Positions 16,216-60,246 of a stretch of 64,000 nucleotides of DNA are shown here, piece by piece. How positions within the stretch are numbered: position 1 is the first letter of the stretch; every line of letters starts with the position of its first letter. The translations under genes were made by a program, and so were the position numbers. The notes below the pieces were generated by a model, which worked only from the letters and a program-made list of their open reading frames with translations, did not search any database and was not told where the DNA came from. Location of the stretch: contig CAMBDS010000002.1 of the NCBI GenBank assembly GCA_945865405.1, forward strand, positions 66,368 through 130,367, read 5' to 3'. This DNA comes from Caldithrix abyssi DSM 13497 (lineage in GTDB: Bacteria; Electryoneota; AABM5-125-24; Hatepunaeales; Hatepunaeaceae).

Positions 16216-16280
16216 CCGTCAGACGCCCTCGTCTGACGGATTGCCTACACACTGTTCTGGCAGACGAGGGCGTCTGCCAG
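16216..16280. repeat. Twin-hairpin intergenic repeat, copy 1
   Basis: Two perfect hairpins, CCGTCAGACG-CCCT-CGTCTGACGG (16216-16239) and CTGGCAGACG-AGGG-CGTCTGCCAG (16257-16280), separated by 17 bp. The same 65-bp arrangement with identical spacing recurs at 53326-53390. It lies between the dCTP deaminase gene and the small membrane protein gene. Confidence 0.9.
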
Positions 16281-27681: not shown

Positions 27682-27859
27682 GGGCAGATTGTAATCTGCC
27701 CCACAACAACAAGAACTAAGTGCGGCTTCGTGCCGCCCCCTCGCGTCCTTGGGAGTTTGGGCGCCATTTAAGGCGGGCGATCAAGTCGCCCCTCACGCAA
27801 GATGCCTGGTTGAACTCGAAGAACGTTGTGAATTCTGCAGGCAGACGCCCTCGTCTGCC
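27682..27859. repeat. Four hairpins in the infC-rpmI leader
   Basis: GGGCAGATT-GT-AATCTGCCC (27682-27701), GCGGC-TTCGT-GCCGC (27722-27736), GGGCGA-TCAAG-TCGCCC (27775-27791) and GGCAGACG-CCCT-CGTCTGCC (27840-27859). Together they fill most of the 259 bp between infC and rpmI, where L20 leader control sits in other bacteria. The arms match elements elsewhere in the window, so they look inserted rather than a dedicated leader. Confidence 0.8.
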
Positions 27860-38437: not shown

Positions 38438-38596
38438 ATCCCGAGAGGTCGGGATACACTCCAATAGATGTGCTGTCAGACGAGGGCGTCTGACAGCGGA
38501 ATCTTGAGGCGCAAGCAAGCTTGCGCACTCCGGAAGTGGCGCGGGTTGATTTTCCGCCCTCCAAGAAGATAACGCAAGAGCGGACTGAAAGTCCGC
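38438..38596. repeat. Cluster of four hairpins before ispG
   Basis: ATCCCGA-GAGG-TCGGGAT (38438-38455), GCTGTCAGACG-AGGG-CGTCTGACAGC (38472-38497), GCGCAAG-CAAG-CTTGCGC (38509-38526) and GCGGACT-GAA-AGTCCGC (38580-38596). The gap of 262 bp is almost wholly made of such elements. Confidence 0.9.
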
Positions 38597-47058: not shown

Positions 47059-47907
47059 TTAGTCGGGGTATCTGGCCAGACAGAGGAGCATCTCCCGCAC
47101 TACTGAGGCAGCGACAACTGCTGATACGCCGGTCTGATCGAAATGCGGAGCAAGTTCGACGACATCGACACCGACAACGTTTCGCAATGCGAGAAGACGA
47201 GCGATCTGGATAAACTCACGGTAGGTGATGCCGAGCGGTTCGGGGTTACCGATACCGGGGACCAGCGAAGGATCGAAGACATCGAGGTCGATAGTAACGT
47301 AGAGCGGCACATTATCGCCGATCTTAGCAATCGCTTTTTCGATATCACGCATCCCGCCTTCGATACCCAAGGGAAATTCGAGTCCTGCGCCGACCATCTC
47401 TTCACGAGTACCTGCTCTGACCCCGTAGCGGTAAATCCGCTCGGGCGGGATGAATTCCATCACCCTTTTGATGACGGTCGCATGGCTTATTTTTTCACCA
47501 AGATAATCATCGCGAAGATCGGTATGGGCGTCAAGCTGAAGAACAGCGAGATTTGGGTAAAATTCGTGTGCCGCTTTGATCGCGCCGAGGCTGACGGTGT
47601 GCTCACCGCCAAGCATAAACGGTTCAGCACCAAGATTATAAATCTCGCGGACTTTTTCAGCTACCATTTCGACGGTTCGAGCGGCAGACCCTGGGGGAAC
47701 CTCAATATCGCCCCAATCCGAGTATTGAATTACATCGAGATCGCGGTCGATGAAAGGACTGAATGTCTCGAGACTGTGCGAAGCAGCTCTAATAGCGCCC
47801 GGTCCGAAGCGGGTGCCTGCCCGAAAGGAAGCGGTTCCATCGAAAGGCACACCAAAGACTATTATATCACCTTTGGTGCCTTCAGCCAAAGCTCCCATAT
47901 ATCGCAT
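47059..47907 (-). CDS. speB: Agmatinase
   Basis: Hydrolyses agmatine to putrescine and urea. 282 residues of the ureohydrolase fold with dinuclear Mn ligands in LGGEHTVSLG, LQLDAHTDLRDDY and TIDLDVFDPSLVPG, and the late GVDVVELAPHFD. ATG 47907 or the Met four codons later. Last gene of the polyamine cluster. Confidence 0.94.
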   Translation of the reverse strand: MRYMGALAEGTKGDIIVFGVPFDGTASFRAGTRFGPGAIRAASHSLETFSPFIDRDLDVIQYSDWGDIEVPPGSAARTVEMVAEKVREIYNLGAEPFMLGGEHTVSLGAIKAAHEFYPNLAVLQLDAHTDLRDDYLGEKISHATVIKRVMEFIPPERIYRYGVRAGTREEMVGAGLEFPLGIEGGMRDIEKAIAKIGDNVPLYVTIDLDVFDPSLVPGIGNPEPLGITYREFIQIARLLALRNVVGVDVVELAPHFDQTGVSAVVAASVVREMLLCLARYPD

Positions 47908-48046
47908 AAGTATGCCTGTTTATTGCTGAACGTGCTATAAACCTTGCCGGTAGTGTTGATCGACAAGGCTATCTATATAACTGAATAGAGATGGTTTGCA
48001 ATAAAATTATCAGTCGTCTATCTATTCAACTTGGGGGAAAAGGAAT

Positions 48047-48910
48047 TTAGGTGGCTACTCGTGCCAGATCGGCCGGAAGTGCAAACGCACCTTTATGAAT
48101 ATCAAGAGTGTAATACCGAAGCGACTCAGAAAATGTGCGGAATCTCACTTGGTTGGGTTGAGCCGAAGATCCACCCGGCTCACGCGACGCCAGCCCAAGA
48201 CACCAGACGCCAGAAGGGTATGTCGGAATATGGGCAAGATAGGCTTTCGCCTCAGTGAAGACTTCTCGCCAATGCTTGAGTGTTGACGCAATGCGCTCGT
48301 GAGAGTAAAGCGGCGAACCTATCTGGCAGGACATAAGGCCATCCGGCTTCAAGGCGTCGTGGACATCGGTGAAGAAGGAGCGTTCGAATAAGCCGACAGC
48401 GGGACCAACAGGGTCTGAACCGTCGATAATCGCTACATCAAACTCGCCCTTGTATCTCCTAAGATAGTCGATTGCGTCACCAATTACAAGCTCAACCTTT
48501 TTGTTGCTGTAGGCTTGTGCGACATCGGGAAAGTGCTTTTTGCAAAGATCAACGACATCACCGTCGATCTCGACTTGAGTCACTTTTTCGAGCGAAGGAT
48601 GTTTGACAATCTCACGTAGACAGCCGCCATCACCGCCGCCGACTACAAGAACCCGCTTCGGATTCGGATGTGCCAGCATCGGGACGTGAGTCATCATTTC
48701 GTGATAGACATGCTCATCACGGTCGGTCAGCATCACCATGCCATCAAGCGTCAGTAATGTACCGTACTCGACGGTCTCCATCACCTCGACCAGTTGGTAG
48801 GGCGATTGTTTCCGGGCAAGGTGTTCTGTTATCCGAAGCGTCAATCCGGCATGAGGAGTGTGAAACTCGGTAAACCAGCTCTGCCCGATATTACCAGTCG
48901 AGTCAGACAA
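48047..48910 (-). CDS. speE: Spermidine synthase
   Basis: Transfers the aminopropyl group of decarboxylated SAM to putrescine. 287 residues from TTG 48910, chosen for a GGAGG seven bases upstream that overlaps the end of the preceding gene. The longer start at 48928 lies inside that gene. N-terminal beta domain (YQLVEVMETVEYGTLLTLDG), then the SAM-binding RVLVVGGGDGGCLREIVKH, TQVEIDGDVVDLCKKHFP and catalytic DVAIIDGSDPVGPAVGLF. Agmatine instead of putrescine as acceptor is possible, but agmatinase is present. Confidence 0.94.
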   Translation of the reverse strand: MSDSTGNIGQSWFTEFHTPHAGLTLRITEHLARKQSPYQLVEVMETVEYGTLLTLDGMVMLTDRDEHVYHEMMTHVPMLAHPNPKRVLVVGGGDGGCLREIVKHPSLEKVTQVEIDGDVVDLCKKHFPDVAQAYSNKKVELVIGDAIDYLRRYKGEFDVAIIDGSDPVGPAVGLFERSFFTDVHDALKPDGLMSCQIGSPLYSHERIASTLKHWREVFTEAKAYLAHIPTYPSGVWCLGLASREPGGSSAQPNQVRFRTFSESLRYYTLDIHKGAFALPADLARVAT

Positions 48911-48912
48911 CG

Positions 48913-49395
48913 TTACTCCTCCCGCCAAAGCAACACAAGAGCGACAACAGAACCAACTTGCTTGACAATGTGCTCGACTGCAATAGATTCAATTCGCAAG
49001 ACTTCGTAATTTCTATCTTTAAGAGCCTCTTCAGCCATTTTTCTGACGCGAGCTTCGGCCTCTGCCGCTGAACTATGGAAGTGACCTTCCATAATCACTC
49101 CGGCAAGCGAAGGATCTTTGGGGATACCGACAGCTACAGAGGCAGCGATTTGCTGACCTACTTTGTACGAGGTTTCGCTACCCATTGCCGCAAACACTAT
49201 GGCACCGGCGGGCAAACACGAGTGATCACTCGCTACTGCGGCTGGGGGAAGGATGCTTGTCACTTTGACCAAATTGTACTGACCGCCCTCGGCGGACTGC
49301 AAAGCGCGGTCAAAGGCGTTCAGTCCGCCATCGGCATCTCCGGCTCCGGCGACAAGCGCGTATCTGTTTGGCAGGTAAACGATTGGTTGCGTCAA
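48913..49395 (-). CDS. pdaD: Pyruvoyl-dependent arginine decarboxylase
   Basis: Makes agmatine from arginine. 160 residues. The proenzyme self-cleaves before Ser in [14 protein letters not shown]; the usual pair is Ser-Ser, here Thr-Ser, with the Ser that becomes the pyruvoyl group retained. [25 protein letters not shown] and [15 protein letters not shown] are typical of the PvlArgDC family. TTG 49395; the speD stop overlaps its start by four bases. Confidence 0.92.
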
Positions 49396-49790
49396 ACTGC
49401 TACCACAAGAGGTTTATGAGCGAGACGCATGTTTGCAGGGAACCTCCCGCGGAATATTTCTTCCACTTCGGTGCGTTCGGCGCCGAGTGCATCTTTCAGC
49501 ACCGCAAAGCCGCGATAAGGGTCGATCTCGTCACCACAGGTAAAGAGATCAACTGCAGCGTAGCCGTATTCGGGCCAGGTGTGGATTGCCAGATGAGACT
49601 CAGCAATTACGACAACACCGCTGACGCCATGAGGGCTGAAATGATGGAAGAGTTCGCCAACAACTGTGGCACCGGTTGCCAGAGCCGCCTTAACCATCGA
49701 GCGACGAACGTGCTCGACATCGTTAAGCATTTCGGGGGAACAACCGTGGTATTCCACCATTAATTGATGTCCAAGAGAACGCATTTCCAA
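49392..49790 (-). CDS. speD: S-adenosylmethionine decarboxylase proenzyme
   Basis: Makes decarboxylated SAM, the aminopropyl donor. 132 residues from TTG 49790, nine bases after GGAGG; ATG 49784 is two codons later, and longer starts add a non-conserved leader. [20 protein letters not shown] contains the Glu-Ser self-cleavage site whose Ser becomes the pyruvoyl group; [14 protein letters not shown] follows. Bacterial class Ib (SpeH-like) form. Translationally coupled to pdaD. Confidence 0.94.
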
Positions 49791-49916
49791 CTCAGAAAAC
49801 CTCCTAAGAATAGTAATTAGCGAAAGAGCCAGCCCCTTTTGGCTGGCATTGCTCATAGAGAAGCAGTTGTGATTAATTAAGCGAACGAAGCAAACGGAAA
49901 GACGAGGGCAATTGAG

Positions 49917-49934
49917 CGCAAGCAAGCTTGCGCA
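49917..49934. repeat. Intergenic hairpin
   Basis: GCGCAAG-CAAG-CTTGCGC followed by ACTCCG, matching 38509-38526 and the reverse of 20253-20270. Between the XRE-cupin gene and speD. Confidence 0.88.
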
Positions 49935-52136: not shown

Positions 52137-53228
52137 ATGACCCGGACCAGACAGATTATTCTCATTATTTTGGCTTTTGTTTTGAACTCATCAACTCAGG
52201 CTCAGAAGAGCTATTTTTGTGTTGCATGTGAAAAAGAAATCATTACTCAGGCGGCGTTCATCGACGGGAAATTTTATCATCCCGATTGCTTTGTTTGTGC
52301 TTCCTGTGGCAAAACTATCAAAGACGACTATGTCCGCGATAAAGAGGAACAATATTTTCACCGTGCCTGCTCGCAGTCGAAGCCCGAGAAACCGGTATGC
52401 TCCCACTGCTACAAGCCGATTACAGAACTTAATTACATTTCTTTCAAAGATAAGTCTTACCATTCGAACTGCTACGAAAATTCGGTCGCGCCCCGTTGTG
52501 ACATTTGTGGTGAAGCGTTGGATAAAGCGGCAATCACCGATTTCTGGGGGACCCGTTTTCACCCGAGACACGCCAAGGAATTCAAGATCTGCGTCGTTTG
52601 CGGCAGATTAATTGTAAGGGATGGCCGCGAGATCGAGCCTGAACGCTGGATGTGTCCTCTCTGTTGTGAAACATCCGTCGTGAAACCCGAAAAAGCGCGT
52701 GAAATGCTGGAATTGGTGCGGGAGCAACTCGCCTCGACCGGAATAGTGGTAAAAACACTGGGGTTAAGAATACAACTCGAGACATCCCAGCAATTGCGGG
52801 AGGGTCGTCGTCCGAGCGCCAGCTCCACTGCTCACGCCTACGCCGGGATCAAATGGAACAAAGGCTCCGATGCTAAAGGGGACGAAACGGCAACCCTAAA
52901 AGTCTTAACCAGTCTGCCTGAAGACTTGATGCGAGGTGTAATAGCTCACGAACTGATGCATATCTGGCAGCACGAAAACGGCGTCGATACAGCTCCTCTT
53001 GACCATCGTGAAGGGAGCGCCAATTGGGCTTCGAGCCTTATCTACGGACAGATGCGCAACGAACGAGGCAGGTATTTCATTGGCGGTCTGGAGAAGTCAA
53101 ATGATCCGCTCTATGGAGTAGGATATCGGGAAATTGCCAAATATGCCGATAGCCATGGCGTCGATGGGGTCTTGCAAATGTTGAAGAAAGAAGGTGCAGA
53201 CGGAGCCAAAGAAAAGAAGAACCGATAA
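52137..53228 (+). CDS. Exported LIM-domain protein with DA1-like metallopeptidase domain
   Basis: 363 residues with signal peptide MTRTRQIILIILAFVLNSST-QA. A complete LIM zinc finger follows: FCVACEK, FYHPDCFVCASCGK and YFHRACSQ (CxxC-HxxC-CxxC-HxxC). A second begins VCSHCYKP with YHSNCYE, and further CxxC pairs (CDICGE, CVVCGR, CPLCCE) resemble a degenerate third. The C-terminal ~180 residues match the DA1-like domain (PF12315 type): HELMHIWQHENG has the HExxH zinc site at residues 271-275, and REGSANWASSLIY supplies a downstream Glu. Plant DA1 is a ubiquitin-activated peptidase; the exported bacterial form must have another target, unknown. ATG 52137. Confidence 0.85.
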   Translation: MTRTRQIILIILAFVLNSSTQAQKSYFCVACEKEIITQAAFIDGKFYHPDCFVCASCGKTIKDDYVRDKEEQYFHRACSQSKPEKPVCSHCYKPITELNYISFKDKSYHSNCYENSVAPRCDICGEALDKAAITDFWGTRFHPRHAKEFKICVVCGRLIVRDGREIEPERWMCPLCCETSVVKPEKAREMLELVREQLASTGIVVKTLGLRIQLETSQQLREGRRPSASSTAHAYAGIKWNKGSDAKGDETATLKVLTSLPEDLMRGVIAHELMHIWQHENGVDTAPLDHREGSANWASSLIYGQMRNERGRYFIGGLEKSNDPLYGVGYREIAKYADSHGVDGVLQMLKKEGADGAKEKKNR

Positions 53229-53526
53229 CCGGGAGCCATTTTGGCTGGAACAACGAATCTTGAAAGGTCGAATACCAGAAACTTCCGAGTCCGTCGAATT
53301 ATTACACCAAAGCCTTTAGGTTCCGCCGTCAGACGCCCTCGTCTGACGGAATGACTGTGCTTAATGCTGGCAGACGAGGGCGTCTGCCAGCGGAATCTAC
53401 ATATACTTAAACGAACTCATCTATAACTAATGCCCTCCTACACTCCTTCCTCTTGTCCCAATCACAATTTAACCGATTCTTTCTCACCAATTACATCAAA
53501 TAATTCGATTATTTTAGTCGCTCCCC
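53229..53526. other. 298-bp gap upstream of the pil promoter
   Basis: It contains the twin-hairpin repeat (53326-53390) preceded by GGTTCCG as in copy 1, then AT-rich DNA without a coding frame. Confidence 0.6.
53326..53390. repeat. Twin-hairpin intergenic repeat, copy 2
   Basis: CCGTCAGACG-CCCT-CGTCTGACGG (53326-53349) and CTGGCAGACG-AGGG-CGTCTGCCAG (53367-53390) with a 17-bp spacer, the same lengths as copy 1 at 16216-16280. The spacer sequences differ. Confidence 0.9.
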
Positions 53527-53651: not shown

Positions 53652-53885
53652 ATGAAGGAAGTGCTTCTTATCGGAGACCTTGCGTCTCGAACCGGTCTTT
53701 CCATACATACGATCAACTATTATCTTAAGCTGGGCCTGGTTGAGGCAACCGGACGTGCGGAACGCTCCGGTTTTCGTATTTTTGGCGAGTCAACGTTATT
53801 GGATTTACAGAGAATCATCGAATTACGTAACAAGAATACCCCGATCAAGGAAATTCAAATGAGGAAGCTTAATGGAATACTATGA
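53652..53885 (+). CDS. MerR-like helix-turn-helix protein
   Basis: 77 residues from ATG 53652, where the family N-terminus begins (EVLLIGDLASRTGLSIHTIN, then YYLKLGLVEATGRAERSGFR). ATG 53598 would add 18 non-conserved residues and lies in a dyad. It is only a DNA-binding domain with a short helix, lacking a dimerisation coiled coil and sensor domain. Overlaps the ATPase gene by 14 bp. First gene of the pil operon and perhaps its regulator. Confidence 0.75.
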   Translation: MKEVLLIGDLASRTGLSIHTINYYLKLGLVEATGRAERSGFRIFGESTLLDLQRIIELRNKNTPIKEIQMRKLNGIL

Positions 53886-54699
53886 GCTTCTTGGATTACG
53901 CGAAGAACCGTTCTCCTCATCTCCCAATCCAAAATTCCTCTACAAATCGTCCGAGCATCTGGAATGTTTGAATCGCCTCGAGATTGCAATTCGCCTCAGG
54001 CGTGGGTTGTCTGTGGTGCTTGGTAGGATTGGTACAGGAAAAACGACACTTAGCCGGGCTCTACTTCAGAGTTTCATGGAAGAGCGTGAGCAGTATCATT
54101 TTGGGCTGGTTATAGACCCGATATTCCCCTCCGAGTATGCTTTCATGCGCAACATTATTGATCTCTTCAGGATCAAATCGAAGGCGCGGTCGGTGTTCGA
54201 GTGTAAAAATGCGATAGAGACATTCCTCTTCCAAAAGGGCGTTCAAGAGGGAAAAATCGTCGTCATGGTGATCGATGAGGGGCAAAACTTAACGCCGACT
54301 TACATCGAAGCACTCCGCAACTTGTTGAACTATGAGACCAATGAGTTCAAGCTACTTCAACTGGTCGTCTTCGCGCAGCTCGATTTTTTACCGAGACTGG
54401 CAAGAAATCCTAACTTCGAAGATAGGATCACGACCAGTTACATGCTGAATCCTCTGAATGAAGAAGAGACTCAGAAGATGATCCATTACCGACTGATTCA
54501 ATCAGGCTGGGATGGTCAAACTGAGATATTTTCTCCCGAAGCCATTAAGGAAATCTATTTCGTCACTCGCGGATATCCTCGCCGTGTGATGAACATCTGC
54601 CACAACTGTATTATCGAAATGCTACGAACAGAGCGTGCTGTGATTGATGAGGATATCGTTCAGCACATTGTTTCGACTGAGGTGCCTTATAACGGATGA
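53872..54699 (+). CDS. ExeA/GspA-like AAA ATPase
   Basis: 275 residues. The start MEYYELLGLREEPFSSSPNP, followed by KFLYKSSEHLECLNRLEIAI, is the ExeA signature. Walker A GRIGTGKTT, Walker B VVMVIDEGQNL, then RDITTSYMLNPLNEEET-like sensor region. ExeA-type ATPases help insert secretin rings through peptidoglycan, which suits a gene ahead of pilMNOPQ. No peptidoglycan-binding domain is present. ATG 53872. The ATGA at its end opens only a 14-codon frame. Confidence 0.85.
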   Translation: MEYYELLGLREEPFSSSPNPKFLYKSSEHLECLNRLEIAIRLRRGLSVVLGRIGTGKTTLSRALLQSFMEEREQYHFGLVIDPIFPSEYAFMRNIIDLFRIKSKARSVFECKNAIETFLFQKGVQEGKIVVMVIDEGQNLTPTYIEALRNLLNYETNEFKLLQLVVFAQLDFLPRLARNPNFEDRITTSYMLNPLNEEETQKMIHYRLIQSGWDGQTEIFSPEAIKEIYFVTRGYPRRVMNICHNCIIEMLRTERAVIDEDIVQHIVSTEVPYNG

Positions 54700-56392
54700 A
54701 GGACAGCGGGATCTCGCGACGAATCGTCTCCTCGAGATAATTCGTGGCGGAAAGGAAGCTGGTTCAAAACCTGCCGAAGGGGCGAAGCCCGCCGAATCGA
54801 AGACCTCTGCGCCGTCATCCTCCCCCCCATCGACCCTTTCAGGTTCAACACAACAGCCGAGACCTACTCAGCCGAGTGGCTCTGGAGCTACTCCACCCAA
54901 GCCTCCCACCCAACAGATTCCGACACCATCCGGCGAGCAGCCTACTACCCGGCGTCCCGGTATGGGGTTGCTGGACAAGGTTCTGAATAAGCCGGCGGGA
55001 CCTACTAAGACTCCCGGCGCACCAGCCGAACATATATCTGCCCCGACATCAGTCTCTGCTATGCTCTCATCGCCTGGGGCAACTTCTGAGACGAAGAAGC
55101 CCTCGACTGAAATAGCGCCTTCCAAACCTGATGAGCCGACACTGCAAGAAGCTTTGCCTGATGCAATGCTGCCGTTTGGTCAACGGATGGCACGCAAATT
55201 GAAGGGCAAAGGATCGTTAGCTACCTCTGCTGAGAAAAAAGGGGCAACCGAAGGCTCAAAACCGGTTGTCAGCAAGGAAACACGCCAAGCGGCGCGAGTT
55301 CGAATTAAGGCACTGACCAAGGGAAAACGGATACTTTCGGTCGATATCGGGACGTCTTCAATCAAGCTTGTCGAATTGCACAAGCAGGGACATAGTTTTG
55401 TGATCACCGGTCTGGAGGTTCGTTCCATTCCAATCGGTATGCGCAAGAATCCTGACTCTCTGTTGTTGCTGCAAAGCAAATTACTGCGCGAGATGCTGCC
55501 AGCGTCGAAGATCAAAGGTGCCGATATACACCTCTCGATCTCAGATAAATCAGCTCAGGCTCGTACTGTGAGCGTTCCGAGTGGCGCCGCCAAGGAGCTG
55601 GTCAACGCGATTAAGTTCCAGATAAAGAAGGATTTGCCATTCCCGCTCGATGTCTGTGAGATAAGCTATCGCGGCTTTGACGAGAAGAATACCAGCAAGC
55701 AGGATGTTGAGATTTTGGCGGTCGATAGACGTGCGGTTGAGTCACTGATTCAACTACTCCAGGACATCGATGCGCTACCCACTGTGATAACGGCACCATC
55801 TGCCTCTTCGCGCTTTTTAGTCAAAGATTATACGGGAATTGAGGGTGGAACTGGCGCGGTAGTTGTTGTCGATATCGGGGCAAGTCATACGACAATCACG
55901 CTTGTAGAAGAGAATCATGTAGTACTCTCACGAACCGTTGCTACTGGAGGAGATGATTTTACCAGCGCTTTAACCGGTGTGGCGCTTGGTCCGAACGGTG
56001 AGGAGCTGACCGATATTCAGGCGGAAAAATACAAGATCGACGTCGGGTTGCCGTCCGAGAGGGATGCCGGAGTAGTCATCAAGGCAGCAATTCAGATGCG
56101 ACCAATCGCAGAAAGAATCTCAACCGAAGTCAATCGTTCGCTTGAGTTTTACCGGCGTGCCCGAACCGGCGGCGAAATCAAGAAAATCATCATGGCGGGC
56201 GGTGGGTCGCTCATGAAGCGATTACCTGAGTTTATCTCGGAGAATACCGGTGTCGATTATGTGATGGGGACTCCGACTGCGCGACTAACGTTGGGGGGGG
56301 GGCATCGGAATCATTGGAAGCACAGACTACTGAGAACGGGCCGATTTTCCTTTCAGCGTTGGCTGTTGCCCTTGATGACGGCAAAGAATTAA
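54647..56392 (+). CDS. pilM: Type IV pilus assembly protein PilM, with long Pro/Ser-rich N-terminus and altered C-terminus
   Basis: Actin-like inner-membrane platform protein. A Pro/Ser/Thr-rich stretch (~40-200) precedes the ATPase core: RILSVDIGTSSIKLVELHKQ, AIKFQIKKDLPFPLD, VVVVDIGASHTTITLVEEN, EVNRSLEFYRRAR and KIIMAGGGSLMKRLPEFI. The reading frame is lost at a G10 run (56293-56302), so the predicted end HRNHWKHRLLRTG is not family-like. One more G would give ASESLEAQTTENGPIFLSAL and run into pilN as a fusion. The start is unclear: ATG 54647, TTG 54669 and ATG 54961 are in frame, the first two overlapping the ATPase gene. Confidence 0.8.
   Translation: MRISFSTLFRLRCLITDEGQRDLATNRLLEIIRGGKEAGSKPAEGAKPAESKTSAPSSSPPSTLSGSTQQPRPTQPSGSGATPPKPPTQQIPTPSGEQPTTRRPGMGLLDKVLNKPAGPTKTPGAPAEHISAPTSVSAMLSSPGATSETKKPSTEIAPSKPDEPTLQEALPDAMLPFGQRMARKLKGKGSLATSAEKKGATEGSKPVVSKETRQAARVRIKALTKGKRILSVDIGTSSIKLVELHKQGHSFVITGLEVRSIPIGMRKNPDSLLLLQSKLLREMLPASKIKGADIHLSISDKSAQARTVSVPSGAAKELVNAIKFQIKKDLPFPLDVCEISYRGFDEKNTSKQDVEILAVDRRAVESLIQLLQDIDALPTVITAPSASSRFLVKDYTGIEGGTGAVVVVDIGASHTTITLVEENHVVLSRTVATGGDDFTSALTGVALGPNGEELTDIQAEKYKIDVGLPSERDAGVVIKAAIQMRPIAERISTEVNRSLEFYRRARTGGEIKKIIMAGGGSLMKRLPEFISENTGVDYVMGTPTARLTLGGGHRNHWKHRLLRTGRFSFQRWLLPLMTAKN
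56293..56302 (+). repeat. G10 tract in pilM
   Basis: Ten consecutive G after CGTT. With ten, PilM ends at TAA 56390-56392. With eleven (or eight), the frame continues without a stop through pilN to 57102. Confidence 0.9.
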
Positions 56393-56394
56393 AC

Positions 56395-57102
56395 ATGCTT
56401 CCGAAGTCGATACAAGCTTCGCTCAAGCTGAAGAAGGCACAGGGCGTTATTGCCCCGATGGCATTAGCCGTAGTCGCGGTGTTAACCGTAGCCTACATTC
56501 TTGCTCTTGGGACAAAAAGCAAAGTCGAATCAGAACTGTCAAATATTCATGGACACCTGAAGGACCTCGATCAGTCACGAGCTACGTTTGTTGCCTCGAC
56601 CGCACAGTATGAAGAATTGGTAAGTCAATTGAAGGCACGTCAGGTCGATTATGACTCCATTCGCATGGGAGAACCGGAAATTCCACGCTATTTGAAAGCT
56701 TTTTCTAATTTAACACCTGAGAATGTTTATTTGAACAAACTTGCAACCAAGTTTCTCAATGAAACAGATGAGGAAAAGGCGCTTGAAGAAGCCGAATCAA
56801 AAGAGGCTCCAACAGCCTTGAACATGGAATCGATCATGTCGTCTTTCACCAAATCTTTTGGTGATCCCCTTTCTGCTGCAAATCTACAGAAGACACAGGC
56901 ACCTCCGGTAAAGAGACCTGTCTTCGGAAGGGTAATCGAATTGGAAGGGATGATTTATCCCCAAGGAACAATGACCGATGTGCAATTAGTTGATTATGTC
57001 TTTAATCTTGAAAATTCAGGGCATTTCAGAGATGTGGCCGTTGATTCTATGTCAACAACCGATGATGGTAGAGTGAAGTTTAGAATAATATGCGGAATGT
57101 GA
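56395..57102 (+). CDS. pilN: Type IV pilus assembly protein PilN
   Basis: 235 residues from ATG 56395. MLPKSIQASLKLKKAQG cytoplasmic N-terminus, one membrane helix (VIAPMALAVVAVLTVAYILA), then a coiled coil (KSKVESELSNIHGHLKDLDQ) and a ferredoxin-like periplasmic domain (FSNLTPENVYLNKLA, VFGRVIELEGMIYP). Binds PilM through the N-terminus and PilO through the periplasmic part. The start is 2 bp after the PilM stop, and the same frame is open upstream to the G10 tract, so a PilM-PilN fusion is possible. Longer than usual because of an inserted segment (~125-170). Confidence 0.82.
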   Translation: MLPKSIQASLKLKKAQGVIAPMALAVVAVLTVAYILALGTKSKVESELSNIHGHLKDLDQSRATFVASTAQYEELVSQLKARQVDYDSIRMGEPEIPRYLKAFSNLTPENVYLNKLATKFLNETDEEKALEEAESKEAPTALNMESIMSSFTKSFGDPLSAANLQKTQAPPVKRPVFGRVIELEGMIYPQGTMTDVQLVDYVFNLENSGHFRDVAVDSMSTTDDGRVKFRIICGM

Positions 57103-57111
57103 TGGTGGGAC

Positions 57112-57690
57112 ATGGCTAATACTAAGAAGTTGGGACCCAAGCAAGAGATCGGTTTGGCCGGAGGCGTGATGCTGCTGGCCGTTGTGGGCTGGTACTTTCT
57201 TCTCTATCAGCCGGTCATAGATAAAACCATGGAAATCCAAATCCAGCTCTTAAGCCAGGAAGATTCTGTTAAAGCTGATCAGAATTACAAGATCAATGCG
57301 GCAAAGCTACAACTCCAAATCAATGAACTTAACGAAAAGATCGCGATTTGGGATCTCCGATTTCCAGCACGAACCGAGATTGTTAGCTTGGCAAAAGAGA
57401 TTTTGCATTTCGGGGAAGCTCACAATCTCGAACTAATCGAGATGCGTCCATCACTGTTTGAGCTTTACGCTCTTGAAAAGGCTGGAGCTCACGTCAGTGG
57501 TAGGTACACTATGCAGTTGCCGATCAGTTGTCATTTTCAGGGACACTATCTCGACCTTGGACGAATGTTGGAGGATGTCTCGAATCTGCCATTCAACGCA
57601 ACAGTAGCTGATGTAGCGCTCTCCCCCATTCCGAAACGGTATCCCGAACTTGACATTAAGTTGAGGCTATTCCTCTATGTACATCTTTAA
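57112..57690 (+). CDS. pilO: Type IV pilus assembly protein PilO
   Basis: 192 residues. One N-terminal membrane helix (IGLAGGVMLLAVVGWYFLLY), coiled coil (INAAKLQLQINELNEKIAIW) and C-terminal ferredoxin-like domain (YTMQLPISCHFQGHYLDLGR, followed by MLEDVSNLPFNAT). Pairs with PilN in the inner-membrane alignment complex. ATG 57112, 9 bp after pilN. Confidence 0.88.
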   Translation: MANTKKLGPKQEIGLAGGVMLLAVVGWYFLLYQPVIDKTMEIQIQLLSQEDSVKADQNYKINAAKLQLQINELNEKIAIWDLRFPARTEIVSLAKEILHFGEAHNLELIEMRPSLFELYALEKAGAHVSGRYTMQLPISCHFQGHYLDLGRMLEDVSNLPFNATVADVALSPIPKRYPELDIKLRLFLYVHL

Positions 57691-57709
57691 TAGAACACAT
57701 TCTTAAACT

Positions 57710-58207
57710 ATGGCTCTGAAGAAAAACGAAAAGTTAATGCTTGCCGGTATCGGTGTGATGATTGTCGTCTTCATCGTCATGGATCCGTATTACTTTATCT
57801 ATAAGGATCCACCCGACGCAACTGCAGAAGCCGGAAAATAAACCGGTGAGCCGGTAAAGACAGTCAGACATCTTCCGAAGCCTAAAGAGAAAGCTGCCAA
57901 AGGCGCTGAAGTACCTGCAGAGGCAGTCGAGGATACCCGTCCAAAGCGAGAGGCGGTAGTTTTCAATGATTGGGGACGTGACCCATTTCTACAATCGAAA
58001 CGAAATTTTGATGACGCCCAGGCAATCTCAGGCTTGAAACTTAGTGGAATATCGACAAAAGGAGCCGATAGTTACGCCTTGATAAACAAACAGATCGTGC
58101 GGGTGGGTGACGGGATAGAGGGCTTGATTGTGAGCCGCATCGATCCAGACAGGGTAACCCTCACCAAGGGAGGACAGAGTTATGTTCTCACGGGAGGCGG
58201 AAGATGA
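57710..58207 (+). pseudogene. pilP: Type IV pilus assembly protein PilP, interrupted by in-frame TAA
   Basis: From ATG 57710 the frame encodes an N-terminal membrane anchor (KLMLAGIGVMIVVFIVMDPY) and a linker, then TAA at 57839-57841. After it the same frame continues for 121 codons with a Lys/Pro/Glu-rich linker, the typical PilP segment FNDWGRDPFLQSKRNFDD and the beta domain LKLSGISTKGADSYALINKQ, IVRVGDGIEGLIV, to TGA 58205-58207, which overlaps the pilQ ATG. No start codon lies soon after the stop. A one-base change TAA to GAA or AAA would restore a normal protein. Nonsense mutation or sequence error. Confidence 0.8.
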
Positions 58208-60246
58208 AATCGAATTTGACTATTATCCTGATTTTGCTGGCAATTATCCTTTCACCAGTTGTTTCTATTGCCGCTGAAGAGGTCAAGCCTTCAGCTGACG
58301 CGCTTGATAATGTGGTAGAATCGGTGGAATTCTACGACACACCGATTGCTGATGTTTTAAGACTTTTGGCGCGCCAAAATGACCTCAATCTTATCATCGG
58401 ACCGGATTCGATGGGGAATGTTTCGTTAATGTTTTCAGGCGTTACATTAAAAGCCGCTCTCGATGCCATTCTGCGAGCAAAGGGTTTCCAGTACCAGCTT
58501 TACGACAACATCATGCTTGTCAGCAGACCCGACTCGCTTGAAAGGAAGCGTGGGATCGGGCTTGAGAGCAAATTATTCAAATTGCGCAATACCGATGCTC
58601 GCGACATGAAGACGGCGATTGACTCGGCCCGTGTCCTTTCGCCTTGGGGCTTCACGTCGGTATTTTCCCGATCGATCAGCAATGAAATTATTACTGTTGC
58701 AGCAAATAGCCCTAATCAGAATGCTATGCGTGCACGTTCAGATGTTCTGCTCGTCACTGACCAAAGGAAGAATCTCGATGAAGTAGCCAAACTTATTTTG
58801 AGTATCGATACCCCGGTAAGGCAGATAGCAATCGACGTAAAATTTGTTGAGACCATTCTAACTGATGATCAACAGATAGGAATTAACTGGCAACAACTCT
58901 TACAGGTGCAGGGAGCTTATAAAGGCAAAACGGAATGGCTTCTCGGCAAGGCACTCCCAGGAGGGGCGAGCACTGGTGAAGTCGCCTTTGGAGCACTTAA
59001 TCAGACACATTTTGATCTAATTCTCGATATGCTGATGTCAAATCAGAGAGCGAAGTTACTGTCACAACCGAGAATCGCATCGCTTGACAATCAACCGGCA
59101 ACGATTGCCATTACCACAACCATTTATATTGAATCGAGAACCAGTGACCCGGCAACAGGGATTGTTCAGAGCAATTTTGAACCACTCGAAGTACCTATAG
59201 AGATGGTCGTCATCCCTCACATTCTTGAAGGTGACCGGATCATGCTCGAGATCAAACCGGTGATCAGCGAAATTGTCGGATGGCAGGTCGGGACACAGGG
59301 CCAGCGAGTCCCACAGATCTCTTCGAGAACTGCCGATACGAGAATTGAAGTTAAGAACGGCGAAACGGCAATTATCGGAGGGTTGCTCAAAGATAAGGTT
59401 ATAGTGAACGAGAAGAAGATATGGCTGCTTGGGTCCATCCCTTTCATCGGCCATCTATTCAGGCATAAAATCGAAACCATTGAGCGTTCAGACCTTTCTA
59501 TTTTCATTACTCCCCGTATTGTTAATAATAGCGATGAATCTCCTTTTGAAAATCCGGAAGATCTCTTCAATTCTGACTCCGACTCAGCCCCAAAAACAGG
59601 TCATACCCAAGCGGCTCGTGCATCAGGTTCAGCGACCAAGCTGCCGGAATTAATCGATCTCCGCGCTTATTTTCCAATGCCAGCCGGCGGAAAATGGACC
59701 TACGATTGGAGTGAGGAGCAAGGCGAAAAATGGATTAGTGAGATGTTCATTGAGAAGCGTTCCGGCGACCTTTCCTATTCCCTTGAGACGATCCCGGACG
59801 GTAAATATAAGTCGACCGCTCGTAGTTGCTACAGATGGGACAGTGTTGGGCTCGTAAGCCTTTACAAGGTGAATCCCGGCAAAGACTCGCTTGCCTATAG
59901 TCCGGTCAGATATATACTTCCGGCACAGATGGAAGTTGGGCGGGAATATGAAACAAGCTATATCTGGACAACCTACGGAATGGTCGGCCAGAAAACGTCA
60001 GTTGGGCATGTAAACCAACTTCAAAAAATTGTTCGACGCGAAGGAGTAACTGCACCAAACGGAAGGTTTAAGGATTGCCTACTGGTTGAGACGATCTGGT
60101 GGAATCCTGGCGACAAGACTAAGGCTAAGAAAAAGAAACTGGTCTGGTATGCTCGTGACATCGGGCCGGTAAAGGTTGAGCACGACATAGCACTTGATCC
60201 GTCCAAGGTCAAAGGTAAGATGTCGGCGATTCTGACTAAGCGATGA
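58204..60246 (+). CDS. pilQ: Type IV pilus secretin PilQ with extra C-terminal domain
   Basis: Outer-membrane gate for the pilus. 680 residues: signal peptide (MKSNLTIILILLAIILSPVV), secretin/TonB short domain (SVEFYDTPIADVLRLLARQN), N0/N1-type domains (KLFKLRNTDARDMKTAIDSA), then the secretin core (IAIDVKFVETILTDDQQIGI, AKLLSQPRIASLDNQPATI, VKNGETAIIGGLLKD, IPFIGHLFR, SIFITPRIV) ending near residue 440. The last ~200 residues, from FPMPAGGKWTYDW to the end, resemble a beta-rich lipoprotein-type domain not usual in PilQ. ATG 58204 overlaps the pilP stop by four bases. Confidence 0.9.
   Translation: MKSNLTIILILLAIILSPVVSIAAEEVKPSADALDNVVESVEFYDTPIADVLRLLARQNDLNLIIGPDSMGNVSLMFSGVTLKAALDAILRAKGFQYQLYDNIMLVSRPDSLERKRGIGLESKLFKLRNTDARDMKTAIDSARVLSPWGFTSVFSRSISNEIITVAANSPNQNAMRARSDVLLVTDQRKNLDEVAKLILSIDTPVRQIAIDVKFVETILTDDQQIGINWQQLLQVQGAYKGKTEWLLGKALPGGASTGEVAFGALNQTHFDLILDMLMSNQRAKLLSQPRIASLDNQPATIAITTTIYIESRTSDPATGIVQSNFEPLEVPIEMVVIPHILEGDRIMLEIKPVISEIVGWQVGTQGQRVPQISSRTADTRIEVKNGETAIIGGLLKDKVIVNEKKIWLLGSIPFIGHLFRHKIETIERSDLSIFITPRIVNNSDESPFENPEDLFNSDSDSAPKTGHTQAARASGSATKLPELIDLRAYFPMPAGGKWTYDWSEEQGEKWISEMFIEKRSGDLSYSLETIPDGKYKSTARSCYRWDSVGLVSLYKVNPGKDSLAYSPVRYILPAQMEVGREYETSYIWTTYGMVGQKTSVGHVNQLQKIVRREGVTAPNGRFKDCLLVETIWWNPGDKTKAKKKKLVWYARDIGPVKVEHDIALDPSKVKGKMSAILTKR

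Follow-up and report, generated by a model that had tools for sequence, protein, structure and literature searches.

Introduction

LIM fingers normally act as intracellular protein-interaction modules. Among the closest described systems, which join them to a peptidase, are the plant DA1/DAR proteins (PF12315). In Arabidopsis DA1, the sequence HEMMHX15EE forms a clan MA site that is needed for cleavage, and the AEMMA mutation abolishes cleavage (Dong 2017, PMC5322733). Peptidase activity of DA1 is also abolished by C274Y, which alters a Cys of its LIM-like module, and four CxxC/H pairs were described for DA1 and for its Roseiflexus counterpart (Dong 2017, PMC5322733). Bacterial LIM-DA1 proteins were already recognised in Roseiflexus, according to the citation of Burroughs 2011 in Dong 2017 (PMC5322733), and a single Chloroflexus LIM protein is mentioned in a 2007 paper. 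In the open-licence literature, no papers on exported LIM-DA1 forms were found, searches for PF12315 and DA1-like having returned plant papers, and no measured activity of any bacterial member was found. LIM-DA1 proteins as such are known in bacteria, and an exported branch across several little-studied phyla appears to be undescribed. The first-pass annotation of the present locus had likewise assumed that the function was undescribed, and no description was found in the open-licence literature.

Gene, domains and zinc ligands

In the window, i.e. the whole stretch of 64,000 nucleotides that was analysed, the gene for an exported bacterial DA1 relative is confirmed as real and intact. The ORF lies at 52137-53228 on the plus strand, as do all the parts given below, and it begins with ATG and translates to 363 amino acids plus a stop. 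It is the single DA1-type gene in its own genome, where no second LIM gene was found.

By Pfam hmmscan of the protein, a LIM domain (PF00412) was placed at residues 28-78 (52218-52370; E=7.7e-12, 45.7 bits, cut-off 22.9). Its ligands, C28/C31/H48/C51 and C54/C57/H75/C78, follow the LIM pattern CX2C-X16-23-HX2C-X2-CX2C-X16-21-[CH]X2[CHD] with two zinc sites. Next is a half-LIM finger with one zinc site (C88/C91/H109/C112; 52398-52472), whose ligands are invariant in a 12-member alignment. It is followed by the DA1-type LIM-like module (52497-52664), which was recognised by family conservation and by the four CxxC/H pairs that precede the peptidase in DA1/DAR proteins, here C121/C124, H142/H145, C152/C155, and C173/C176. 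The gluzincin peptidase domain, assigned from the DA1-like Pfam match and from a VIA-align match to leukotriene A4 (LTA4) hydrolase, covers residues 182-363 (52680-53225). Its zinc-binding and catalytic motif HELMH (H271, E272, H275; 52947-52961) is separated by 16 residues from E292, the third zinc ligand of the active site (53010-53012), and this HELMH-X16-E spacing agrees with the DA1-like arrangement of HExxH and a Glu 15-16 residues further on. Closer to the C-terminus, a Y326-G-x-G motif (53112-53123) in a DPxYGxGFR segment contains a candidate transition-state Tyr, Y326. All of the structural zinc ligands (20/20) and the catalytic residues are intact.

The DA1-like match (PF12315) had E=2e-6 and 27.8 bits versus a cut-off of 25. 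This score is marginal for the single protein, because a whole-genome search with PF12315 alone stayed below threshold in its own genome and in every control genome. Nevertheless, both profile matches are over their Pfam cut-offs, and the HExxH DA1-like domain reported in the first-pass annotation is borne out. That annotation had counted one complete and at least one partial LIM finger: the full LIM stands and the partial finger is one half-LIM, while the DA1 LIM-like module had not been separated out. No ubiquitin-interacting motif was found among the Pfam matches of the 363-residue protein up to E 10.

Export signal

The N-terminus, MTRTRQIILIILAFVLNSSTQA, is organised as a signal peptide with its three regions (residues 1-22; 52137-52202). 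Inspection by eye gave n, h, and c regions of MTRTRQ, IILIILAFVLN, and SSTQA, followed by QK, as in Sec signals, with likely cleavage after A22. The signal peptide that had been claimed is thus present in the sequence, and only five residues separate it from the first LIM Cys. After this inspection a simple hydropathy test was applied, in which the best mean at the N-terminus of the protein was 3.2 over 11 residues. The test was passed by 65 of the 66 members of the exported set and by none of the 15 in the cytosolic set; it is a lenient one, since 36% of neighbouring ORFs pass too. The family-wide pattern rather than the single-protein test carries the weight of the predicted export: an export signal stands directly ahead of the first finger in 65/66 exported-set members.

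The hydrophobic stretch may alternatively be an uncleaved anchor that would hold the enzyme at the periplasmic face of the inner membrane. Hydrophobic cores occur all through the family, an obvious AxA site is absent from some relatives, and lipobox-like sequences are found in Planctomycetota forms; however, TQA followed by QK is plausible as a type I cleavage site in this protein, and the anchor is kept as a tentative, minority possibility. The preferred reading, an exported zinc metallopeptidase, includes both a periplasmic and a membrane-tethered form.

As a separate observation, two Planctomycetota forms (L085:1022-1726 and L096:5857-6633) have lipobox-like signals, LSGCAS and LGGCAS, together with a reduced finger set.

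Predicted structure

An AlphaFold2 model was built from an 81-row alignment (mean pLDDT 92.7, pTM 0.77), and it contains a helix at residues 2-17, within the signal-peptide region. Foldseek against the PDB returned LIM pairs, and VIA-align was used as a second look at the Foldseek matches. Residues 24-83 aligned with the LIM domains of PINCH and TES (Z 9.6-10.3, rmsd 1.6-1.7, 59 residues), and residues 181-359 of the predicted model aligned with LTA4 hydrolase (Z 10.5, rmsd 3.3, 151 residues). The latter match is consistent with the placement of DA1 in clan MA. No DA1 peptidase structure was found by sequence or Foldseek searches of the PDB, the sequence searches giving LIM structures only, and matches in a viral structure library were confined to partial RING-type or SprT-like ones of low TM-score.

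HExxH by itself is no proof of peptidase activity, because the fold search also gave a weak match to an alpha-ketoglutarate-dependent oxygenase domain with HExxH (8s5f, E 0.033, probability 0.41). The domain could then be another type of metal enzyme, or a fold retained for binding only. This seems quite improbable in view of the complete HExxH-X16-E, the Z of 10.5 to an M1-type peptidase catalytic domain, and the homology to DA1, for which peptidase activity was shown by mutation.

Family, distribution and phylogeny

Eight other genomes of the same family were searched and six had a relative; five of these relatives are 49-55% identical to the query and represent five genera of the same Calditrichota family. 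Across the phylum, relatives were found in 10 of 38 genomes. In a 12-protein alignment, H271, E272, H275, and E292 are invariant, as are all the structural ligands except C124, H142, and H145, which are conserved at 90% or more.

A wider family scan, in which each species was represented by one genome, yielded 86 related loci, of which 80 were kept. The carriers belong to Calditrichota, Zixibacteria, Ignavibacteria, Marinimicrobia, Desulfobacterota, Spirochaetes, Bacteroidales, Planctomycetota, Cyanobacteria, and others. The expectation that related bacterial entries probably exist was thus correct, with both exported and cytosolic branches among the loci and with the Roseiflexus type already recognised, as cited in PMC5322733. 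In the 81-member alignment, the DA1-like match is present in all members (best E 7.3e-24) and LIM in 67/81. Residues C173, C176, H271, E272, H275, E292, and Y326 are invariant (81/81), and C152 and C155 occur in 80/81; the scan patterns include HExxH and EGSAN, so the catalytic conservation, HELMH included, was partly selected for, whereas that of the fingers was not. Among the fingers of the bacterial family, the LIM-like module is the most conserved part, also in short forms without the full LIM.

Judged from the N-terminal sequence, 66 of the 81 members were assigned as exported, with the fingers after the export signal, and 15 look cytosolic, mainly those of Spirochaetes and Bacteroidales. 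In the phylogenetic tree, the query is in a starred clade with the five family orthologues (100/99). The exported/cytosolic label requires five changes on the tree, which is unrooted and has unresolved deep branches, so export was probably gained or lost several times.

Since the first descriptions of LIM and DA1 came from eukaryotes, a recent acquisition from a eukaryote, now decaying, might be considered. It is extremely improbable, as the starred clade holds six orthologues within one Calditrichota family, the bacterial spread is wide, and no zinc ligand is lost. Recent transfer followed by decay with loss of zinc ligands had been set against the proposal in the first-pass annotation; it is ruled out because the ligands are intact and orthologues of 49-55% identity occur in five genera.

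A cultivable carrier is among the sources, since one member, L047, comes from a Melioribacter roseus MAG. Two further members are of separate interest. A protein from a Gammaproteobacterial MAG (L065:5986-6948) has no signal peptide and consists of LIM, LIM-like module, and peptidase with no extra half-LIM; its DA1-like score of 84.8 bits is the highest seen. In layout it is the bacterial form closest to plant DA1, and the tree pairs it with an exported Eisenbacteria form at 100/99. One Calditrichota genome has a third paralogue, L014 (G016:C17), with a hydrophobic N-terminus, a DA1-type peptidase, and zero zinc fingers.

Gene neighbourhood

In five near relatives from different genera (L004, L017, L018, L019, and L020), whose proteins are ~50% identical, a PBP1A-type gene immediately precedes the peptidase gene on the same strand, ~13-190 bp away, and it encodes Transgly plus Transpeptidase domains, i.e. 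a class A PBP. The upstream PBP is constant while the downstream genes differ among the five, which suggests that the two genes are kept together for a reason; the pairing also hints at the envelope. No neighbour is conserved across the whole family; conserved neighbours were found within clades only.

A narrower form of the main explanation is that the peptidase serves cell-wall synthesis, either by processing or regulating a class A PBP or by sharing an envelope complex with it. The PBP1A-type gene upstream in 5/5 near relatives examined speaks for such a role, as does a PBP gene nearby, on the other strand, at the cyanobacterial locus L091. However, a DeoC/LacD-type aldolase gene is upstream in the window itself and its PBP orthologue (61% identical) sits on a different contig, C7, so that the linkage was either lost or never present here. 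Neighbours also differ outside this family, e.g. ten Ignavibacteria-type loci have an adjacent divergent transporter-like gene that is MATE-like by inspection. A cell-wall role is unlikely in this specific form, and the general one, an exported peptidase acting in the envelope, is preferred.

Other features of the surrounding DNA can be described as follows. Just downstream, at 53872-60246, genes for an AAA ATPase, PilM, PilO, and secretin form a cluster for the assembly of a type IV pilus or a type II secretion system. On the minus strand at 47059-49925 are polyamine genes, which encode pyruvoyl arginine decarboxylase and S-adenosylmethionine decarboxylase; inspection added ORFs resembling agmatinase and spermidine synthase. 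A scan for promoters and terminators gave chance level only. The palindromic 16-mer CAGACGAGGGCGTCTG was found at 53330-53386, and also at 16220-16276, 27842-27857, and 38477-38492. There are 70 exact copies in its own genome (0 for the reversed control), six of them in the window, often as an inverted pair ~41 bases apart with a very stable hairpin (z -8.3). This family is a REP/REPIN-like repeat.

Disulfide-forming systems and the proposed reduced cysteines

The gene's own genome, which is ~90% complete, gave no DSBA, DsbB, or VKOR, and the control genomes were positive; across 39 genomes, which comprise the window's assembly and others of its phylum, no DSBA over the cut-off and no VKOR were found. 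The lack of these genes would fit extracytoplasmic cysteines that are kept reduced for zinc, although absence from a ~90% complete genome is not proof. In 39 other carrier genomes, from both branches, DSBA-family genes occur in 12/39 and VKOR in 3/39, the 12/39 being an upper bound for DsbA proper since some DSBA-family proteins are cytosolic. Absence of Dsb/VKOR as a rule for carriers is ruled out, as some have such genes; carriers without an oxidising system are apparently common, and its lack is no requirement.

Proposed function

The protein is best explained, with a probability of roughly 60%, as an active Sec-exported zinc metallopeptidase of the bacterial LIM-DA1 family, either periplasmic or membrane-tethered. 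The signal peptide would carry the predicted peptidase across the inner membrane, and five putative zinc sites would fold the LIM, half-LIM, and LIM-like modules outside the cytoplasm. A sixth zinc may be held in the gluzincin active site by H271, H275, and E292, with E272 as the probable general base and Y326 as a possible transition-state stabiliser. Most likely, the LIM array serves to bind another protein, either a partner or a substrate. The LIM-like module may pack by the catalytic domain and control or gate the active site, a role that is suggested because the peptidase activity of plant DA1 needs this module. We propose that the catalytic unit includes the LIM-like module, and that the full LIM and the half-LIM, whose number varies, serve as targeting arms. 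The predicted enzyme may cut one or a few envelope proteins by limited proteolysis. Because of the predicted location and the missing ubiquitin-interacting motif, plant-style ubiquitin-dependent activation could not apply to an exported protein. A substrate (and activation) different from those of plant DA1, as the first-pass annotation had argued, is thus held to be necessary, given the export signal.

A broader scheme is doubtful at present. In it, a multi-phylum envelope branch of the DA1 family would use LIM fingers with reduced, zinc-bound cysteines, mostly in lineages without a disulfide-forming system, to trim PBP1A or an associated protein, and plant DA1 would have arisen from an old bacterial LIM-peptidase as a cytosolic, ubiquitin-coupled form.

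Comparison with known systems

A conserved exported family would show LIM fingers at work outside the cytoplasm, would serve as a simple, ubiquitin-free model for LIM-like control of a DA1 peptidase, and would bear on the origin of plant DA1. Like plant DA1/DAR proteins such as Arabidopsis DA1, the window protein has the order LIM, LIM-like module, and clan MA peptidase, an HExxH-X15/16-E site, and a DA1-like Pfam match. It differs in having a signal peptide where the plant proteins have ubiquitin-interacting motifs, in its extra half-LIM finger, and in its predicted extracytoplasmic location. M1 aminopeptidases and LTA4 hydrolase share the fold of residues 181-359 (Z 10.5) and HExxH plus a downstream Glu; however, identity is ~14%, the GxMEN exopeptidase motif of M1 aminopeptidases is absent from the translated sequence, and the other M1 domains are missing. 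The Roseiflexus-type LIM-DA1 also combines a LIM-like zinc module with a DA1 peptidase in bacteria. This type is possibly represented here by L012, which is short and without a signal peptide, whereas the window protein is exported and has a longer finger array.
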